A stretch of 60,921 nucleotides of DNA from Crystallibacter degradans (GTDB lineage Bacteria; Actinomycetota; Actinomycetes; Actinomycetales; Micrococcaceae). The notes beneath the pieces are model-generated. The model saw only the letters and a list, made by a program, of their open reading frames with translations. It did not search any database and was not told the origin of the DNA. The position numbers were made by a program, and so were the translations under genes. The number at the start of each line of letters is the position of its first letter. The stretch's first letter is position 1. Shown piece by piece: positions 12,143 to 24,183 of this stretch. The stretch covers positions 1-60,921 of the forward strand of contig NZ_JABBCH010000019.1 of the NCBI RefSeq assembly GCF_012952295.1. Direction: 5' to 3'.

Positions 12143-12292
12143 ATGGCTGAGAACTGGAAGGACCGCTTCGGCGGCGACCTTGAAGAGAAGAGCAAGAACA
12201 TCCAGGACTGGATGTACGGATCCGGCGGCAAAGTGCTCGGGGCGATCCTCGTTGTCCTGGGACTGTACTTCGTCCTGCGGATCTTCCTCTAG
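12143..12292 (+). CDS. Small tail-anchored membrane protein
   Basis: Open frame of 49 aa: a charged N-terminal half (MAENWKDRFGGDLEEKSKN) and a C-terminal hydrophobic helix (VLGAILVVLGLYFVLRIF), i.e. a tail-anchored topology opposite to that of its neighbours. CATAGG stands six bases before the ATG, again suggesting a leaderless start. It lies ten bases before the NERD gene. The well-formed amphipathic and membrane halves make this credible despite the small size. Confidence 0.55.
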   Translation: MAENWKDRFGGDLEEKSKNIQDWMYGSGGKVLGAILVVLGLYFVLRIFL

Positions 12293-12302
12293 GGGCGCGG
12301 GC

Positions 12303-13055
12303 ATGGCGAACGGAACCTTCGGCACCGCCGCGGCCGGACTCGACAACGCACACTGGGCGAAGAACCGGGACGTCGCAGCGATCGGCGCCAAGGGTGAACT
12401 GCGCACCGCGGAGATCCTCGATTCGTTCGCGGACCGGGCCGCGATCCTGCACGACCTGCGCATCCCGATCAAGGGCATCAGCGCCAACATCGACCACGTC
12501 GTCATCAGCGGCCGCCGGGTCCTGATCCTCGACTCGAAGGTGTGGGCGCCGGGCATCTATTGGACGCTCGGCGGGGTCAATCGGCGCGGTATGCAGCGGG
12601 TGGTCCACACGCAGAAAAAGACCATGGAAATGGCCTGGTCCAGCCTGGTCCGTTTCCTGGACCGCACGCGGTCCGAAGTGGTCCACCCGAAGGTCGTTGT
12701 GTGGTCCAGCCGGACCACCCAGCCGGTCCGGACCATCCTCTTCCAGGTGCCTGGGGCAGACGTCCTCAAGGGCGAAAAACTCGCGCGGACACTGGGATCT
12801 TTCATCGGCAGGCAGCCTGCGGACCAACAGATTGTGGACCACCTCTCTTCGCTGTTGGTCCGGTCCACGCGGACCACTATGGACCACCCCCGGACCACTT
12901 CGTGGACCACCCAGCGGACCGGTCCGGACCAGCGGGTGGACCGGTCCGGTGGACCACTTGTGGACCACCCCATGTATTCCCGTAGGGGAATGGACGAGAA
13001 GGTCCGGGCCAGGCTGGAACGCATGCGCAACGACGACGACCCGTTCGCCGCCTGA
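12303..13055 (+). CDS. NERD-domain (nuclease-related) protein
   Basis: Protein of 250 aa with an N-terminal NERD domain: GAKGELRTAEIL (Gly28, Glu32), ANIDHVVISG (Asp64) and ILDSKVW (Asp77-Ser-Lys79), the arrangement of a restriction-endonuclease-like fold. The second half is low complexity and reflects an unusual array of GGWCC-type DNA repeats rather than a normal domain. It ends RNDDDPFAA, matching the repeated DDDPFA motif at the C-terminus of the translocase that follows 42 bases later. Likely a DNA-processing partner of that translocase, in transfer or defence; the reaction is not known. Confidence 0.8.
   Translation: MANGTFGTAAAGLDNAHWAKNRDVAAIGAKGELRTAEILDSFADRAAILHDLRIPIKGISANIDHVVISGRRVLILDSKVWAPGIYWTLGGVNRRGMQRVVHTQKKTMEMAWSSLVRFLDRTRSEVVHPKVVVWSSRTTQPVRTILFQVPGADVLKGEKLARTLGSFIGRQPADQQIVDHLSSLLVRSTRTTMDHPRTTSWTTQRTGPDQRVDRSGGPLVDHPMYSRRGMDEKVRARLERMRNDDDPFAA
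12601..12967. repeat. Array of 25 palindromic YGGWCCR heptamers
   Basis: I count 25 copies of YGGWCCR (core GGACC or GGTCC), first core at 12602 and last at 12962, most spaced 5-15 bases apart with one gap (12735-12820). Every copy has a pyrimidine before and a purine after the core. Core positions fall in all three codon phases (11, 11 and 2-3), so the pattern is set at DNA level, not by the encoded peptide. Random expectation for the core at this GC is about one or two in this length. Confidence 0.9.
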
Positions 13056-13097: not shown

Positions 13098-16000
13098 ATG
13101 GCTGCACGTGCCCAGGCACCGCAGAAACCGGTCACCCTGCCGCTGATTGCCCTCACCATCGCCGCGGCCGGGGCCGCTGTCTGGTACGGCTACCCGGGTC
13201 TCGCCCTCGTGTGGGCCGGACTGATCGCCGCCGGCATCACCTACCCGCCGGCACAGTTCACGGGCAAAAAGGACAAGCGGGGCTACGCCACTCCGGCCGA
13301 CGCGTCCGAGCTGCCGGCGATGAACCGCTACCGGTTCTGGGAAGACGTCAAATACAAGCTGATGCTGCCCAACGCGGACTGGCTGCCGGGCTGGCCGGTC
13401 CGCCTCTCCTGGCTCGCCGCTCTCTGGGCGGGAGCCGCCGCTTCCCTGATCCCTGTGACCGATGAGTACACGGCCGGCTGGGGCCAGTGGGTGAACGCGG
13501 TCGCCGCCTATGTCGTCGTTGCCCAGCTGGCCGCATCCCGCCGGCGGACCAGTGTGTACGGCGACGAGAGCCCCGGCGCCCGTACCGACACCCTCATCCG
13601 GCTCTTCAAGGAGCGCACCGCTGCCATCGCCGGGATGGCCGGCGGCGGTGTAGCCCTGGGCATCTTCCTGGCCGTTGCTGCGACCATCTTCGAGCCCCTC
13701 TACAGCAGCATCGTGCCGATCCCGGTCTGGGCACTGTGGTTGCTGCTACCCGTTGGCGGCATCCTCCTGGTCATCTCCCGCACCTGGATCGACGCAGCAC
13801 TCGAGCACTGGAAGGTCGTGGTCGAAGCCCGCGCCGAATGGGAGAACCGGTGGCCGCAGCTGAAGATTGATCCGGCCCCTCGTCTGATTGACCGGCAGCA
13901 GGTTGGACCAGCCACCGTGGACACCTTCGAAGCCCCGGCCTCCATGGGCGCCGGCCAGTTCTGGACCATGGACGCCAAGATCACCCCGACCGTCGGCGGT
14001 AACAGCCAGGTCTACGTCCTCGACGTCCCCGACTCGGATGCAAACGGCCAGCCCGTAGCCGGCTCCCGCAGCCCGTTGAAGTTCGACATCGCCGTCTGGC
14101 CGGCCGACCAGATCCCCTCCGTCACCGACCCGACCGTCCCGAAAGAGCAGGTAGCCCTGTACGTCCGCTGCGCCCTGGCCAAGGCCTGCGACGCCGGAGC
14201 AATGGCCCCGCGCTACATCTTCGACGACATCCACCTGCTCACCGAACCGGCCGCCCCCGCCGCGGAACCGGTGAAGAAGTCCATCGAGGGCCAGGTCGTG
14301 GCCTACGGGGAAGACCTGGACGGGGACGGCATTCCCGACGGCCAGCAGGGCAGCGAGGGCTCTCCCGCCATCTGGGCCTTGACCTGGCACAACCACGACA
14401 CCGCCGGGGCGGTCTCGTTCCGCACCAACGCCTCGGGCGCCATGGCCGGCATCATCCAGGCCCAGGTCCTCGTCGACCACCGTGCCCGCGGCGGTTCCGG
14501 TGTCGCCTACTTCGGCGCCATCGGCGACCCGGCCGTCCGGTTCGACCCGAACAGCGGCGTCACCGAGGACGCCCTGCACGCCATCGCTGAGGAAGACAAG
14601 TGGAACCGCCACCGGGGCGAAGTCGTCGGCTCCATGGTGAACCCGCCGATCGCCCAGATCCCCACCGGCGCGACCGAGACCCTGCGCAACGGGGTCGCCG
14701 TCCACCGGATGGCGTTCGTGACCCGGCAGGGCATGGACCCGATGGAGTTCATGAAGTATGAGAACAAGATGCCGACCGTGCTGAACGCGGCACCGTTCGT
14801 CACCCTGACCGGCTGGCCCGGAACCGGCCAGCGGCCCGGCGAACGGCACAGCCAGGCCCTCGCCGTGTACTGGTCCGACGAATCCGTCCCGGCCAACCCG
14901 GACACCCTGTCCGGGGCCCGCGGTTCAGAAGCAGCCAAGTGGGTGCTTTCGGGCCGGGTCAACCAGGCGTTCACCGCTGCCCGGCTGCCGCGCCCGGAAA
15001 TCGCGCGTGCCCTCTGCTTGACCAAGGAAGACTCCCGGAAGCACATCTGGAAGATCGACCTGCGCCTCTACGGCGGCGTCACCCTCGCCGAGGTCCGCGG
15101 CGCGGCCCAGAAGATCAAGCAGCACTGGGCTTCCGAATGGCTGCGGGTCACCGAGGCCGCCGACGGCTGCACCATCTACGTTGGAGCGAGCCCGTCCAAG
15201 GTGAAGCTGGCCAATCCGCGCTACGAGAAGGACCTTCACGCCCTCGACTGGGAGCAGGCGTTTATCGACGCGAAGATCTCCGGCATCGGCGGGCTCATGC
15301 CCAAACTGGTGAAGGTCGACCACATGCCGATGAACCCGCAGGTGAGGATCCTGACCTTCGACCTGGCCGGCACCGGCTTGGACTACGCTGCCATGAAGGA
15401 GGCCCGTGCCCGGCTGGAGTCCACGTCCGGCAACTCGTTCGTGGACATCCGACGGGTGAAGAACGATGCGCAGAAAATCCAGATTCTCGCCTCTGAGGTG
15501 AACCCAATGCCCGAGCACGCTCCCTACGACTACGAGGCGATCGACGGCTCGAAGGGCATCCCGTTCGCCACCGGTGTCGAAGGCGAGCCGGTTGAATTTG
15601 ACATCAAATCGCACATTCACCAGATGGTTGTGGGCGGTTCGGGATCCGGTAAGTCCGTGATCCTTCAGGCCTACATAACGGGGGCGCTGCGCCGCGGCTG
15701 CGACCTGTACATCGCTGACCCGACCAAGGGCGCAGCCGACTTCACTTTTGCCGAACCGTACGCGAAGGCGTTCTGTAAAGACCTGCTGGAGACGGGCGCC
15801 ATGATGAAAGGTGTCTATGCCGAGGTCAAGCGCCGCGTGAAGCTGAACAGCGCTTACGGTGTCGGCTCGTACCGTGACCTGCCCGAGGACGTACGCCCGG
15901 CCCACATCGTTATTGTCCTGGACGAGTTCACCTCGCTGATCGCTCCGGACGCGGTGGCCAAGCCCTCTGATGACCCGGATGTCGAGGCCGAGCGGGAGAT

Positions 16001-19000
16001 GGCTCTGGCCATCAATGCCTCCAAGGCCGAGGTCGGCGCTTTCACCGCGAAGATCGCTCGCGAGGCCCGCTCCGCCGGTGTCACCCTGCTTCTCGCTACC
16101 CAGAAGCTGGTGCAGAAAGATCTTGACCAGATGCCAGGCGGCGCAACGTTGAAGGATCTGGATCTCGACACCCTTATTCCGGTACCGGTGTCAGAGCGCT
16201 TCCCTGACGGCTGGGCGAGGAACCGCGATCTGCAGGTCGGTGACCTCCTGTTCGCCGTCGATGGCAGCACCACGCATATCGCCGGTTTCTCCCCGATTAT
16301 CGACCAGGAGTCGACGTGGGAGGTGGAATTCGATGATGGTCAGGTGGTGCGGACTGGTGCCGGCCACCAGTGGACGGCGTCAAACGAAAACAGCAGGAAA
16401 TGGTGGGGACGGGTCGCGCGTGACCACGACGGAAACCCGATGTGGCAGCAGCGTGCCGCTACGGCACGATACCTGTCAGAGACTCTTTCCGTCGGCACCT
16501 GGGCAGACTACGGGCAGGTTGCCGAAATGGCAGGGCTGGACGAAAAATACGTTCGCATGCTGTCAAGGAAGTTCGGAACACCGGTCATGACCGACACCGT
16601 GCTGGGGCTCCAGGATGTGGACTCCGCCGTTCGAAGAGGTCTCCCCGGCCGGCAGTACATTGTGGACTCCCGGTGCCTGACCGCTGTGGCGCGCGACCGC
16701 ATGGTCACCGAAACAGGCAGCCTGGAATCCTTCATCGGTGCCCAGATGACGGCCCGTCAGATGCTTCAGGCCACCCTGGGCGAAAAGCCCACGGCAATGC
16801 AGGCTGGCAATCTTGTGACGCGGTTGGGGGAAGCGGGCGTCCCGTGTCAGCCAGGTGCACATGACCGCCTGGTGATTGACGTTGGTGAGTTCTTCACGGC
16901 AATGGCGGACCATGCAGCCCGTTTGGCTCTCATAGGTGCCGACGGCGACGCCCCCGCTTTGGAGAAGGTCGTAACAACTGAAGAGATGGCCGAGAACCTG
17001 AAGTGCCACAGGGGTGGGTCCAACTGGGCAGTCCGCCTCCCCAAGGCAGCCGAACTTCCCGACGCTGACTTGCCGGTAGACCCTTATGTCTTGGGCGTTT
17101 GGCTCGGGGACGGTTCAACAGGGACAGGAATCATAGCCGCGGGCATGACCGGGGCGTGCACGGACTCCGACGGGACTACGGATCAGGATTTCATGATCAG
17201 GCAACTTTGCGGCGCAGGGTTCGATGGGCATGCATTGAAGTGCTCAGATCGTTTGATCGGAACCCGTGGGCTCAAGGTCGCCCTGCGCGGCATCGGCGTC
17301 CTCAGCCGCAAGCACATTCCGGTGAAGTACATGCGGGGCTCGGTTGCACAGCGCATCGCGCTGCTGCAGGGACTCATGGATACTGACGGATCTGTGTCCA
17401 ACGGCAAACCGACCATCACACAAAAGAACCGGGGGCTGGCGCTCCAAGTCTTGGAGCTTGCCCGGTCGCTGGGGTTCAAGGCAACGGAGAGTCGCTACGA
17501 GTCCTGGTACAAGGACGACAATGGAGACCGGGTTCCCAGAGGGAACGTCACCAACGTCTCCTTTCATGCCGGGGTGCCAGTATTCCGGCTGCCACGGAAG
17601 ATCGCGAAGCAGAAGTTGAGCGCAACACGCCAGCTTCGTTACGTCGCCGATGTGCGCCGGGTTGCCCCTGTGCAGACGAGGTGCATCGCCGTTGAGCATC
17701 CTTCCCATCTGTTTCTGGTCGAAGGCTTCATTCCGACCCACAACACCAACCTGTCCCGCCTGATCGCCGGCAAGTCCACCCCGGGTGAGCGCATGTCCGC
17801 CCTGAAGGACGCGATGAACGCTCCGGCGCTGGGTGATTCCATCCCGCCGGGACGCGCTATCTTCGAGCCTGTAACTTCCGGCCCGGTGCTCATTCAGTGC
17901 TGGTACGACAAGCGCGAGCAGGAGGCGCTGGCCGGGTACGTTGGCCTGCATCGGAACCCGCTGGCCGAAGACGAGAAGCTCGACCTGAACGCCTACATGC
18001 GCAATCGGCCGCGGCAGGACGACCCGACCCAGTTTGAAGAGCCGGCCGTGATCGACCTGGGCGAGATGGAACTGGACCTGGAGGATCTCGAGCTGGACTG
18101 GTCCGACTCCGACCTGGACACAACCGAAGGAGACGACGATGTCGTACCGGAATCAGCTGCGGATGCAGCGCATCAAGGAATCACCGACGACCTGGTGGGG
18201 GCGGATCCTGTATCCCATCTGGCTGGTCCATCTGTACGAGATGTACGAGGCGGAGAAGAAAGCAGCCGGGTCGGACCCGCTCTGGTGGAAGCCTCGGAGA
18301 CGGAAGCAACGGAGGCGCTTGAGGTAGCCGAGTACCCTGAAGCCGTGACGGCTGACCAAGACACCGCTCTTTTCCTGGACGTCGACGGCACTCTTCTCCC
18401 GTCGATCACGGGAGAGGGCATGATCCGGATGAACGTTCCGGGCTTCGGTGCGGTCGCGTACCGGCCGGCCGTGGTCCGCACCCTCTCAGCACTGCCGGTG
18501 CGTCAGGTATGGCTGACCGACTGGGCCGCGGACGCGCCCAAGCATCTGGGCCCGATGTTCCCGGGTGCCGTCGAGTATTTGCCCCGTGGCTCCCAGGAGT
18601 ACGGCTCGTGGAAGATCGACGCCGCGGCAGCTTGGCTGGAATCGAACCCGCAGATCGGCCGTGTCGTCTGGGCGGATGATCAGCTGGTCCGCGAGGACAT
18701 TGCGCTCGGCCTGACCTTCCGGGAACTGGCTGAGGACATGTTCGCCGATCACGGTGTCGAGGCAGTGCTCGTGGTCCCCGATGGCAAGACCGGCCTGAGT
18801 GACGCGGAGCTGGCCAGGATCGCTGCCTTTACCGGAGGCACGGCTGCGATTGAGCCGGAGCCGGAGGTGGTGGCCGCCCCGGAGCCCGGACCGGGTCCCG
18901 TGGAACCCGAGGGAGATGACCCGTTCGCAGCGGAAGTGCCGGTACCGCGCTTCCAACAGCCAATCGACGACGACCCGTTTGCAGAGGAGACACCGCGTCC

Positions 19001-19046
19001 GGGTCGCCGCAGGATCATCGTCCCGGACGACGATCCGTTCGCCTGA
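13098..19046 (+). CDS. Membrane FtsK/TraB-type DNA translocase with intein and C-terminal HAD domain
   Basis: Polypeptide of 1,982 aa. N-terminus: about six membrane helices within the first ~240 residues. A long middle region precedes the FtsK/SpoIIIE ATPase: Walker A GGSGSGKS (Lys852), Walker B VIVLDEF (Asp942-Glu943) and LLLATQKL. An intein fills residues 1020-1549, after which the ATPase resumes with TNLSRLIAGKSTPGERMSAL. Then comes an acidic linker, a HAD-like domain (FLDVDGTLLPS, Asp1761/Asp1763) and an acidic tail with three DD(D)PFA repeats. Predicted to pump double-stranded DNA at the membrane, as TraB does in actinobacterial conjugation. AAGGAAGGA precedes the ATG. The linker around 18139-18327 has poor coding character in this frame (see the overlapping small ORF). 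Confidence 0.88.
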   Translation: MAARAQAPQKPVTLPLIALTIAAAGAAVWYGYPGLALVWAGLIAAGITYPPAQFTGKKDKRGYATPADASELPAMNRYRFWEDVKYKLMLPNADWLPGWPVRLSWLAALWAGAAASLIPVTDEYTAGWGQWVNAVAAYVVVAQLAASRRRTSVYGDESPGARTDTLIRLFKERTAAIAGMAGGGVALGIFLAVAATIFEPLYSSIVPIPVWALWLLLPVGGILLVISRTWIDAALEHWKVVVEARAEWENRWPQLKIDPAPRLIDRQQVGPATVDTFEAPASMGAGQFWTMDAKITPTVGGNSQVYVLDVPDSDANGQPVAGSRSPLKFDIAVWPADQIPSVTDPTVPKEQVALYVRCALAKACDAGAMAPRYIFDDIHLLTEPAAPAAEPVKKSIEGQVVAYGEDLDGDGIPDGQQGSEGSPAIWALTWHNHDTAGAVSFRTNASGAMAGIIQAQVLVDHRARGGSGVAYFGAIGDPAVRFDPNSGVTEDALHAIAEEDKWNRHRGEVVGSMVNPPIAQIPTGATETLRNGVAVHRMAFVTRQGMDPMEFMKYENKMPTVLNAAPFVTLTGWPGTGQRPGERHSQALAVYWSDESVPANPDTLSGARGSEAAKWVLSGRVNQAFTAARLPRPEIARALCLTKEDSRKHIWKIDLRLYGGVTLAEVRGAAQKIKQHWASEWLRVTEAADGCTIYVGASPSKVKLANPRYEKDLHALDWEQAFIDAKISGIGGLMPKLVKVDHMPMNPQVRILTFDLAGTGLDYAAMKEARARLESTSGNSFVDIRRVKNDAQKIQILASEVNPMPEHAPYDYEAIDGSKGIPFATGVEGEPVEFDIKSHIHQMVVGGSGSGKSVILQAYITGALRRGCDLYIADPTKGAADFTFAEPYAKAFCKDLLETGAMMKGVYAEVKRRVKLNSAYGVGSYRDLPEDVRPAHIVIVLDEFTSLIAPDAVAKPSDDPDVEAEREMALAINASKAEVGAFTAKIAREARSAGVTLLLATQKLVQKDLDQMPGGATLKDLDLDTLIPVPVSERFPDGWARNRDLQVGDLLFAVDGSTTHIAGFSPIIDQESTWEVEFDDGQVVRTGAGHQWTASNENSRKWWGRVARDHDGNPMWQQRAATARYLSETLSVGTWADYGQVAEMAGLDEKYVRMLSRKFGTPVMTDTVLGLQDVDSAVRRGLPGRQYIVDSRCLTAVARDRMVTETGSLESFIGAQMTARQMLQATLGEKPTAMQAGNLVTRLGEAGVPCQPGAHDRLVIDVGEFFTAMADHAARLALIGADGDAPALEKVVTTEEMAENLKCHRGGSNWAVRLPKAAELPDADLPVDPYVLGVWLGDGSTGTGIIAAGMTGACTDSDGTTDQDFMIRQLCGAGFDGHALKCSDRLIGTRGLKVALRGIGVLSRKHIPVKYMRGSVAQRIALLQGLMDTDGSVSNGKPTITQKNRGLALQVLELARSLGFKATESRYESWYKDDNGDRVPRGNVTNVSFHAGVPVFRLPRKIAKQKLSATRQLRYVADVRRVAPVQTRCIAVEHPSHLFLVEGFIPTHNTNLSRLIAGKSTPGERMSALKDAMNAPALGDSIPPGRAIFEPVTSGPVLIQCWYDKREQEALAGYVGLHRNPLAEDEKLDLNAYMRNRPRQDDPTQFEEPAVIDLGEMELDLEDLELDWSDSDLDTTEGDDDVVPESAADAAHQGITDDLVGADPVSHLAGPSVRDVRGGEESSRVGPALVEASETEATEALEVAEYPEAVTADQDTALFLDVDGTLLPSITGEGMIRMNVPGFGAVAYRPAVVRTLSALPVRQVWLTDWAADAPKHLGPMFPGAVEYLPRGSQEYGSWKIDAAAAWLESNPQIGRVVWADDQLVREDIALGLTFRELAEDMFADHGVEAVLVVPDGKTGLSDAELARIAAFTGGTAAIEPEPEVVAAPEPGPGPVEPEGDDPFAAEVPVPRFQQPIDDDPFAEETPRPGRRRIIVPDDDPFA
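16155..17744 (+). mobile_element. Intein with LAGLIDADG homing endonuclease (class 3-like)
   Basis: In-frame insertion of 530 residues between Lys1019 and Thr1550 of the translocase, within the conserved ATPase motif that reads ATLK then TNLSRL. Splicing block A is DLDLDTLIPVP with Asp rather than Cys/Ser at position 1; block B is TGAGHQW (His1090, Trp1092); block F is TRCIAVE (Cys1529); the end is PTHN with Thr1547 and Asn1549, followed by Thr. Trp, Cys and Thr at these places define class 3 inteins, which do not need a residue-1 nucleophile. Endonuclease motifs LGVWLGDGS (Asp1338) and LLQGLMDTDGSV (Asp1428/1430) look intact. Confidence 0.88.
18139..18327 (+). CDS. Small ORF overlapping the translocase gene in another frame
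   Basis: Frame of 62 aa with AAGGAG six bases before the ATG. The product has the segment TTWWGRILYPIWLVHLYEMY, then DPLWWKPRRRKQRRR, which looks like a membrane-associated peptide with a basic tail. Third-position GC is about 80% in this frame against about 50% in the translocase frame over the same bases, so this frame looks more like real coding sequence. It may be an independent gene that once separated the translocase from the HAD gene before a stop codon was lost. Confidence 0.5.
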   Translation: MSYRNQLRMQRIKESPTTWWGRILYPIWLVHLYEMYEAEKKAAGSDPLWWKPRRRKQRRRLR

Positions 19047-22636: not shown

Positions 22637-24183
22637 TCACAAGGACAGCAGCCAGTCCCGCAGCTGGAGCGTGGATTCGCAGTCGTCGAGGTTGTAGGCC
22701 AGAATCGAGCCGAGGACCTCCTCCGCTGCAGCGGTGTCGCCTGCGGCGGCCGCGTCAGCGTAGGCCGAGTACGCGGTGATCGAGTCCACTGCGGTGGCGA
22801 CGCCTTCACGCGCGGCGGGCCGGTAGAGCGGTTCGAGCTTCTTGATGCTCAGCGACTTCTCCGAGATCCGGATGGCGCGCGAGACGACCGGGCGCAGATC
22901 CACGAGCACCTCGGCGTTCAGCTCCTCCACCTCGTCGGCGAAAATCCCGTGCCGGGCCGCCAGCTGGGTCAAGGCGTTCTTCTCGTAATGGGCGTAGTGG
23001 TAGATGTGCATCTCCGGCCGGGTTTTCCGGCGGGCGGCGACCAGCTCGATGAAGTCCGTGAACGCCTTGCGCTCCTGTTCCCGGTCATGCGCGGTCAGCG
23101 GGTGGAACACCGGGGCTGCGTCCGGGTTGGCCAGCGGGCGGGCCAGCAGGCCGAAAAGGTACTCCAGTCCCCAGGTGCCGTCCGAGGGTTCGAGCCGGTT
23201 CGGGTCGCCCTCGAAGTCGAAGAAAATGTCCCCCGGGTCCGGTGCGGGCAGCTCCTCCAGGGCAGTGCGGTCGATGACCCGGTCTCGCCGTCGAAGCCGC
23301 CGGTGCCGGCCTGCAGCCGGGCCTGGTCCTGCAGGCCGGCCAGCTTCGCATCGGGTTCGTCCAGGGCGGCGGTGGCCAGCCCGGTCACGGTCGTGATGCC
23401 CTGGCTGCGCAGCAGCGTCCGGTACTTCTTCGCGCCGGGCATGCCGGCCACGAGCAGCAGGTCATCGGCGGCCGCGGCGGCCTCCTGGCATTCCGGGCAG
23501 GTGGAGAGCCGGCAGGCGCCGTCGCCTTCCGGGTCCCAGGCCGCGGGTGCGCGAGTGACCAGATGCTCGGCCAGGGCTCCTGTGATCCGGTCGCGGACCG
23601 CCCGGAACTTCGGCAGGATCTTCTCCAGCTCGGCCTTCGCCGGGGTGCCGTCGCGCAGGATGACCCGCGCGTACGGGTGCACGGGGACGCCGGCGGCCAG
23701 CAGCTGGTCGGCGTAGGCAGCCAGCTGGATCAGGTACTCGGGCTTGATCTTGGAGGCCAGCTTGGTGTCGTTGACCGACCAGGCCCCGGTGTCCTCGCGG
23801 ACCAGGAAGTCCGCCTTGCCGTGGAAGGACCCGTCGAAGAAGGAGCCCTGGTAAACGACGTCGGCACCGGAGGACAGGGCGGCCAGGGTGTCGTTGTGCC
23901 CCTGCTTGAGCAGCTCCCGGGAGAAGGCGCCTTCCGTCGTGGTCACGGCGGCTACCTCGCGGTCAGCGGCGAAGGTCTCCAGCACCCGGTATTCGTGGGC
24001 GCGGCCGCGGTCGCGCAGCAGATCCAGCATCTCCTGGTCCTTGCGTTCCGGCGGCAGCGCCAGGCCGGCGCGCACGTCCAGGCGGCGTTTCAAGGCGAAC
24101 AGGCAGGCGGAGCCGGCCGCCAGGTCGGAGGCGGAGACGATCAGTCCGGTCGGGTTGTCGGAGTCGGGTGGAAGGAAAAACAC
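22637..24183 (-). pseudogene. RecB-family nuclease (TM0106-like), frameshifted and lacking helicase
   Basis: The GTG at 24183 has AGGAGG upstream. The first frame (to about 23282) is a Cas4/RecB-like nuclease: SFHGKADFLVRE, WSVNDTKLA, then CPECQEA for a cysteine cluster. The product then continues in another frame with an RNase H/DEDD-like module: DIFFDFEGDP, HYEKNALTQLA, YNLDDCESTLQLRDWL. One indel within a G/C run breaks it. Homologues usually continue into a superfamily 1 helicase; here the frame ends right after the exonuclease-like module, so the helicase part is missing. Confidence 0.75.

Follow-up and report, generated by a model that had tools for sequence, protein, structure and literature searches.

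A predicted protein-binding array of GGWCC palindromes within a NERD-domain gene of Crystallibacter degradans, and similar arrays at DUF2637-HTH genes of related plasmids

Introduction

Short palindromic sites positioned inside the gene of a plasmid DNA-binding protein have been described for Streptomyces plasmids (including pIJ101), in the SpdA2/sps system (PMC4170104). As described in that report, the sps motif is conserved across Streptomyces plasmids and affects segregational stability, and its authors suggested that it interacts with conserved chromosomal functions (PMC4170104). The clt/TRS loci associated with TraB, also from Streptomyces plasmids, represent a second point of comparison: there too, short repeats are clustered on a plasmid-type element, and a gene of the FtsK type is close by (PMC3583192, PMC4170104). 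Two further systems are reported in terms that bear on the locus described below. SGI1 is a chromosomal element that carries docking sites of a helper plasmid, with parS-like sites that hijack the ParABS system of its IncC helper, and it offers a model for an array that is read in trans (PMC10954446). BldC forms multimers along repeats of variable number (PMC5859096).

Here we describe an array of YGGWCCR sites in a DNA stretch of 60,921 nucleotides from Crystallibacter degradans (contig NZ_JABBCH010000019.1, positions 1 to 60,921 of the forward strand; 'the window'), together with a second family of such arrays at DUF2637-HTH genes. The array motif differs from the sps consensus (CGTCACGTGACG), and whereas sps is a 12-bp palindrome present in 1–3 copies, each of the two blocks at the loci described here contains 6–15 sites of 7 bp. 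SpdA2 is furthermore a small protein with a zinc-finger match, unlike the DUF2637-HTH protein, which includes a membrane domain. BldC differs in that the protein is MerR-like and its site AT-rich (PMC5859096). In contrast to clt/TRS, the presence of the array and that of an FtsK gene are uncoupled across relatives, and the motif is a different one. Unlike the situation for SGI1, no helper plasmid was found in the genome of the window, and a helper-encoded binder is putative here. Plasmid R1, in which the repeats are 11 bp long, is described as having two repeat groups, as at this locus; unlike R1, no partition NTPase gene was found adjoining the array, and its two blocks point apart.

Results

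A two-block array of YGGWCCR sites within a NERD-domain gene

The array and the genes surrounding it are as follows.

12143..12292, + strand: gene of a small peptide (49 aa), judged by eye to be membrane-type
12303..13055, + strand: NERD-domain gene that hosts the array, 250 aa (PF08378, E 2.2e-10)
12601..12735, unstranded: left array block, 10 YGGWCCR sites (7 GGTCC and 3 GGACC), within the conserved NERD part
12736..12819, unstranded: gap between the blocks, 84 bp, zero sites
12820..12967, unstranded: right array block, 15 YGGWCCR sites (11 GGACC and 4 GGTCC)
13098..19046, + strand: translocase of the FtsK/SpoIIIE type, containing a LAGLIDADG (intein-like) insertion and ending in a HAD domain

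The right block corresponds mostly to a C-terminal extension of the NERD protein; plasmid NERD proteins are without this extension or have only part of it. One additional YGGWCCR is found in the same gene at position 12430, outside the array. Between positions 12602 and 12966 we counted 25 GGWCC cores versus 1.5 expected (Poisson P ~5e-22). An earlier note on this DNA had reported 25 YGGWCCR sites in about 365 bases, with the flanking pyrimidine and purine present without exception, and this description is accurate: all 25 array cores carry the Y..R flanks, as compared with 87 of the 250 cores elsewhere in the window. The count along the window that the same note had proposed also indicates enrichment, with 112 YGGWCCR overall (25 of them within 12601–12967) against a mean of 60.45 and a largest value of 81 in 100 shuffles. 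Its statement that the cores fall in all three codon phases stands in so far as all three are used, but the usage (2, 11 and 12 cores) is uneven and one phase is rare.

Within the blocks, 13 of the 23 steps between neighboring sites measure 9–13 bp (random mean 6.7, p 0.005); this spacing test was used in place of a phase-coherence sum for helical phasing, which was unclear across the whole array. The polarity of the cores (GGTCC to GGACC, 7:3 in the left block and 4:11 in the right) displays a tendency for the blocks to point apart that is weak (Fisher p 0.049). A pattern requiring triple sites matched 21 times in the genome of the window, where 11 matches correspond to the array and the remaining 10 are scattered. 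When the array was used in BLAST searches against plasmids and phages, only matches of 30–37 bases with E values of 0.1–0.4 were returned, and a scan of viral contigs with the NERD protein, a DUF2637-HTH alignment and two array patterns gave zero matches. We consider the locus very probably a protein-binding array acting at the level of the DNA.

Orthologous arrays and selection on the DNA motif

A search of ten genomes of the genus with the NERD protein gave matches in four, three of which are full-length: the genome of the window itself (G000), G007 (93% protein identity) and G001 (89%). The Y..R flanks accompany 25/25, 25/26 and 26/26 array cores in G000, G007 and G001, respectively. Comparison of these three copies, to which all of the following figures on variability refer, indicated that 1 of 100 positions in the GG..CC cores is variable versus 14 of 118 in the spacers of the blocks (p 0.002), while 46 of 298 positions vary in the N-terminal part of NERD (p 2e-5 in comparison with the cores). 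For third-codon positions the corresponding values are 0/46 within cores versus 21/99 (p 2e-4). Seven changes were found within sites, all of them nonsynonymous, and six retain the Y, W or R class of the base involved; the single change that breaks a core is in G001, which also possesses one extra site that is absent from G000 and G007. A short insertion is common to G007 and G001, and the core that it contains is preceded by A in G007. The near-invariance of the cores, together with changes that are nonsynonymous and retain the base class, therefore demonstrates selection on the DNA word rather than on the peptide: selection acts on the DNA motif, and the amino acids yield to the DNA.

These results bear directly on the possibility that the repeats are a peptide-level artefact of low-complexity coding sequence. 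The C-terminal extension is indeed of low complexity, and its amino acids alone lift the expected number of sites to 6.6, which is the mean obtained when the NERD open reading frame was resampled with synonymous codons (2000 runs, codon usage drawn from the window). The maximum of those runs, however, is 13 YGGWCCR, versus 26 in the real gene; the changes within sites are all nonsynonymous and mostly retain the motif; and at DUF2637 genes (described below) the upstream blocks precede the start of the gene. We therefore regard such an artefact as having a negligible probability. Coding constraint, which the earlier note had named as a potential refutation, thus does not explain the repeats, and its proposal that the motif is maintained at the DNA level agrees with both the resampling and the substitutions among orthologues.

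Alignment of the left block with plasmid NERD proteins requires hardly a gap, and its ten sites would therefore have been acquired through substitutions in existing codons and not through repeat expansion. Judged from that alignment, point changes are the most likely origin of the left block.

Across the family, 8 of 295 genomes contain NERD matches, comprising the three orthologues and five others, and no array cluster is present at those five loci, nor at two NERD loci from other genera (L033 and L034). Absence of the array from homologous NERD genes, which the earlier note had taken as evidence against its proposal, is thus true for distant homologues and false for the two orthologues within the genus. 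The same distribution bears on the idea that the array is an operator or self-recognition element, which NERD itself, or else a cluster regulator, would bind within its own gene. All three orthologues (G000, G001 and G007) retain both the array and the C-terminal extension, and SpdA2/sps provides a demonstrated case of a palindrome located in the gene for the protein that binds it (PMC4170104). Against this, the more distant NERD homologues are without the array, a second binder of equal specificity would be required to account for the motif at DUF2637 genes, and 25 sites is a large number for an operator. We consider this explanation unlikely.

Arrays at DUF2637-HTH genes of plasmids and family genomes

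When the ten genomes of the genus were searched with the pattern, a second dense cluster of sites was found in G002, at a DUF2637 gene, where it lies partly within the gene and partly upstream; in that genome a stop codon separates the membrane part from the helix-turn-helix (HTH) part. BLAST searches with the G002 locus identified the same place in pYJN5-1, pACHL01 and pPA-B-2242, which are three of ten plasmids discussed in the following section, and in each of them this locus is the sole run of triple sites, any other triples being isolated. We extended the search to 395 genomes of the family in two ways. The triple-site pattern matched 209 of them, mostly as isolated occurrences, and 16 that were picked by eye for high counts were followed; these added G119 and G274, among the matches listed. 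A search of the 395 genomes with a DUF2637-HTH alignment matched 26 and added G337 and two copies in G185, an array-bearing genome that was outside the 16 followed.

Two GGWCC blocks are present at eight of the nine full-length DUF2637-HTH loci examined in the family, with those of G337 being sparser (6 and 8 sites). At the remaining full-length locus, G185-C13, the array is absent. None of 23 DUF2637 matches that end before the HTH part has an array (6 cores per 150 bases at one of them and at most 4 at the other 22). In six loci that were compared in detail, the distance from the first base of the conserved membrane part to the intragenic block is 455–470 bases, and sites most often follow one another at a step of 12 bp. 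This block encodes the linker that joins the membrane domain to the HTH. When eight loci were pooled, GGTCC accounted for 71 of 81 upstream sites and GGACC for 81 of 94 intragenic sites, read along the gene, such that the blocks point apart. The palindromic sites thus lie in the gene of a candidate DNA-binding protein, in the same position as at SpdA/sps.

The array in the window shares the layout of these loci, in having two GGWCC blocks, steps near 12 bp, and blocks that point apart (weakly, at p 0.049). It differs from them in being located within a NERD gene, in a genome without a DUF2637-HTH match. The base preceding the core differs as well: 35 of 139 sites at six DUF2637 loci have A before GGACC, and among the 77 sites of the three NERD arrays only 1 does. 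The G185-C11 array represents an intermediate case, in which 21 of 22 sites have the symmetric YGGWCCR form seen in the window. We consider it probable that the window array and the DUF2637-HTH arrays form one class.

A common origin of the window and plasmid arrays was also considered, based on a stretch of 20 bases that by eye is identical with part of the upstream array of pACHL01; this candidate was rejected, as such a match between short repetitive sites is weak.

The adjacent FtsK-type translocase

The FtsK open reading frame starts at 13098, 131 bases past the last array site, as the earlier note had stated. Its LAGLIDADG-type insertion, within the motor, and its terminal HAD domain span residues 1407–1472 and 1758–1904, respectively, and no gamma domain is found in the Pfam result for this protein. 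The HAD domain is of a kind named after RNA repair proteins and scores slightly below the Pfam cut-off.

The leading proposal of the earlier note was that the array acts as a loading site like clt/TRS, at which the adjacent FtsK would hexamerize and then pump the element into a recipient. The position of the ftsK gene next to the array agrees with this proposal, as does a weak similarity of the protein to the plasmid TraB model (29.8 bits, against a cut-off of 800), which is limited to the level of the ATPase; clt loci are likewise described as clusters of repeats, one of them overlapping a tra gene (PMC3583192). The distribution of the two features among relatives argues against it. G001 retains 26 sites without ftsK, although the loss of the gene there is undated: the ftsK match ends after ~41 bases, a search of G001 with the whole FtsK matches the intein part only, and the FtsK of pACHL01 used as a query against the same genome gives zero matches. 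G002 contains DUF2637 arrays and no such FtsK, and G274, in which an array is present, displays a weak 35% match to the C-terminal part of FtsK.

Conversely, we collected ten plasmids from PLSDB (0.15–0.61 Mb) that carry this kind of NERD gene, beside which an FtsK-type gene is annotated in eight, a LAGLIDADG homing endonuclease in one, and nothing in one. An adjacent GGWCC array is absent from all ten of these NERD loci, with at most 4 Y..R sites per 370 bases in the fetched stretches; in three of the ten plasmids an array is located elsewhere, at the DUF2637-HTH gene. With arrays found in the absence of FtsK and FtsK loci in the absence of arrays, it follows that the distribution of the array does not match that of this FtsK. 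In view also of the absence of a gamma domain from the Pfam result and the HAD domain at the C-terminus, loading of the adjacent FtsK appears quite unlikely, and that part of the earlier proposal is not borne out. Its more general part, that this is a dense array of short sites of the protein-loading kind beside plasmid-type genes, is supported.

Repeats beside ParA genes and other explanations for the array

Several of the related plasmids contain dense arrays or repeats beside a gene for ParA. Two Arthrobacter megaplasmids (W01 and W05) have arrays of AGWCT/CAGASTY (ACAGACT) sites directly before that gene. The corresponding features are listed here.

L005 29150-29901 and L009 23680-24600: ParA-side arrays of two Arthrobacter megaplasmids, with the next gene RHH-like by eye
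NC_011879.1 from 199237: CTCAGC repeats adjacent to ParA in W03 (pACHL01)
NZ_CP061722.1 from 176955: ATGCAT repeats adjacent to ParA in W04 (pPA-B-2242)

The ParA-side array of the ACAGACT/AGWCT type looks like a centromere. AT-rich TATATA clusters, possibly an origin, occur in similar places in L005 (from 22844) and L009 (from 19482).

The presence of dense short-site arrays beside parA in sister megaplasmids raises the possibility that the GGWCC array is itself the centromere of a ParA-type partition system. The ParA-side arrays of W01, W03, W04 and W05 use other motifs, however, and in W03 and W04 they are separated from the GGWCC array by ~157–160 kb. Moreover, the sequence stretches retrieved for the window region, G001 and G007 contain no homologue of ParA or its partner from W01 and W05. 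With other motifs beside ParA and no such ParA in the window stretch, this candidate was rejected as very unlikely. The ParA-side motifs vary between plasmids while the GGWCC motif is constant, a behavior that recalls sps in Streptomyces plasmids.

Two further explanations relate to the sequence of the motif itself. The GGWCC core is the site of AvaII, and methyltransferase genes are annotated on the megaplasmids, such that the array might serve as a restriction-modification or methylation sensor of the AvaII type. The 20 open reading frames of the window that were examined with Pfam, however, include no methyltransferase or restriction enzyme (the nuclease-like NERD and a sub-threshold GIY-YIG match being all that was found), and the invariant Y..R flanks would be needless for a site of this type; we regard this explanation as highly improbable. 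DnaA boxes were set aside, as the conserved part of the array, GGTCC, is not the 3′ end of a DnaA box.

Genomic setting of the array

The orthologous array of G001 is located in a contig of 4.76 Mb, and the segment of the window from 28.6 to 45.7 kb aligns to that same contig at ~92%; the right part of the window therefore corresponds to chromosomal backbone. The genes around the array that match megaplasmid genes include those of the small peptide, NERD, FtsK, an RNase H-like protein and a few others. The small peptide has matches upstream of NERD in five of the megaplasmid-type loci that were searched with tblastn, and in G001 a gene of 1047 aa near the array also matches megaplasmid genes. 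From these matches we infer that the locus is a chromosomal island and that its source was a megaplasmid of this family.

In G001 (L022 2807-14578), ftsK after its start is replaced by the megaplasmid-type gene of 1047 aa, an NB-ARC gene and a phage-type integrase. The RNase H-like gene of the window (22637-23713) is seemingly shorter or interrupted when compared to a 658-aa open reading frame of G007. An AlphaFold2 model of the NERD protein, computed with four sequences, had a mean pLDDT of 34.9 and was not used.

A candidate reader and a proposed model of its action

The HTH-containing tail of the DUF2637 protein was used to construct a profile, which in a sample of 18 genomes and records (lacking G185 and G337) matched strongly (E 1e-24 or better) at the six array loci alone and gave five further weak matches (E 6e-6 to 9e-4). 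At each of the eight array loci the putative recognition helix contains SKTTV; five arrayless HTH homologues (G185-C13, plus four Microbacterium phages drawn from 31 matching phage records) have SKSSV or SKSTV there, an association that is a correlation among related sequences and not a set of independent events. The four phage homologues (L240–L243) have no GGWCC arrays. From these sequence comparisons, the HTH of the same protein is the likely predicted reader of the arrays at DUF2637 loci. Neither a DUF2637-HTH protein nor a match to the HTH-tail profile was found in G000, G001 and G007, and the reader of the window array would therefore be another protein or one that is supplied in trans.

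We propose a model in which a dimeric DNA-binding protein would occupy YGGWCCR sites spaced by approximately one helical turn and would assemble cooperatively over two blocks that point apart, creating a cis-acting docking array. In the array-bearing Micrococcaceae megaplasmids, the binder would most likely be the membrane-anchored DUF2637-HTH protein, consisting of a membrane domain, a linker and a helix-turn-helix, which would grip its own array and thereby tether the megaplasmid for segregation or transfer. At the window copy, the binder would be another protein, or would be provided in trans by a megaplasmid. On balance we lean toward this reading, in which the array would dock a protein in cis and so serve to maintain or transfer a plasmid, and in the window is situated on a chromosomal island that bears megaplasmid-type genes. 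A role in maintenance or anchoring is plausible though short of probable; a role in transfer is a more doubtful prospect. More speculative, and in our estimate rather unlikely, is an extended version in which an as yet undescribed actinobacterial plasmid system uses the membrane-anchored DUF2637-HTH protein to grip two opposed arrays and thereby tether, segregate or transfer megaplasmids, and chromosomal islands like that of the window evolved an array within a coding gene in order to be handled in trans; this version would include the origin of the left block by point changes and takes SGI1 and IncC as its model.

Several observations stand against the docking model. The candidate binder of the plasmid arrays, DUF2637-HTH, is missing from the genome of the window, and the differing frequency of A before GGACC at DUF2637 and NERD loci argues against a single reader. 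G185-C13 and the four phage homologues are arrayless, and the polarity of the window array is weak. Finally, the arrays of pACHL01 and pPA-B-2242 are located ~33 kb from the GC-skew maximum, and not at the skew minimum.

The ten related plasmids are all typed as non-mobilizable in PLSDB. A conserved docking motif, combined with a candidate membrane-anchored reader, would render their maintenance and movement testable, and proteins of the DUF2637-HTH kind would gain a first testable role. The copy in the window is in addition a clear case of a DNA-level array that is written into a coding gene, with its amino acids giving way. In searches of full-text literature, outside which most subscription papers fall, no GGWCC, TGGACCA or TGGTCCA array is described among the papers listed, as judged by title, and those for DUF2637, and for the NERD domain together with FtsK, returned only work that is unrelated by title.

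Two of the arrayless homologue groups have features of their own. In three of the four Microbacterium phages (L240–L243), a serine integrase gene is located close downstream of the DUF2637-HTH gene. The G185-C13 copy (L270) has an altered HTH and no array; its genome also contains a copy with an array, and the two form a natural comparison pair.
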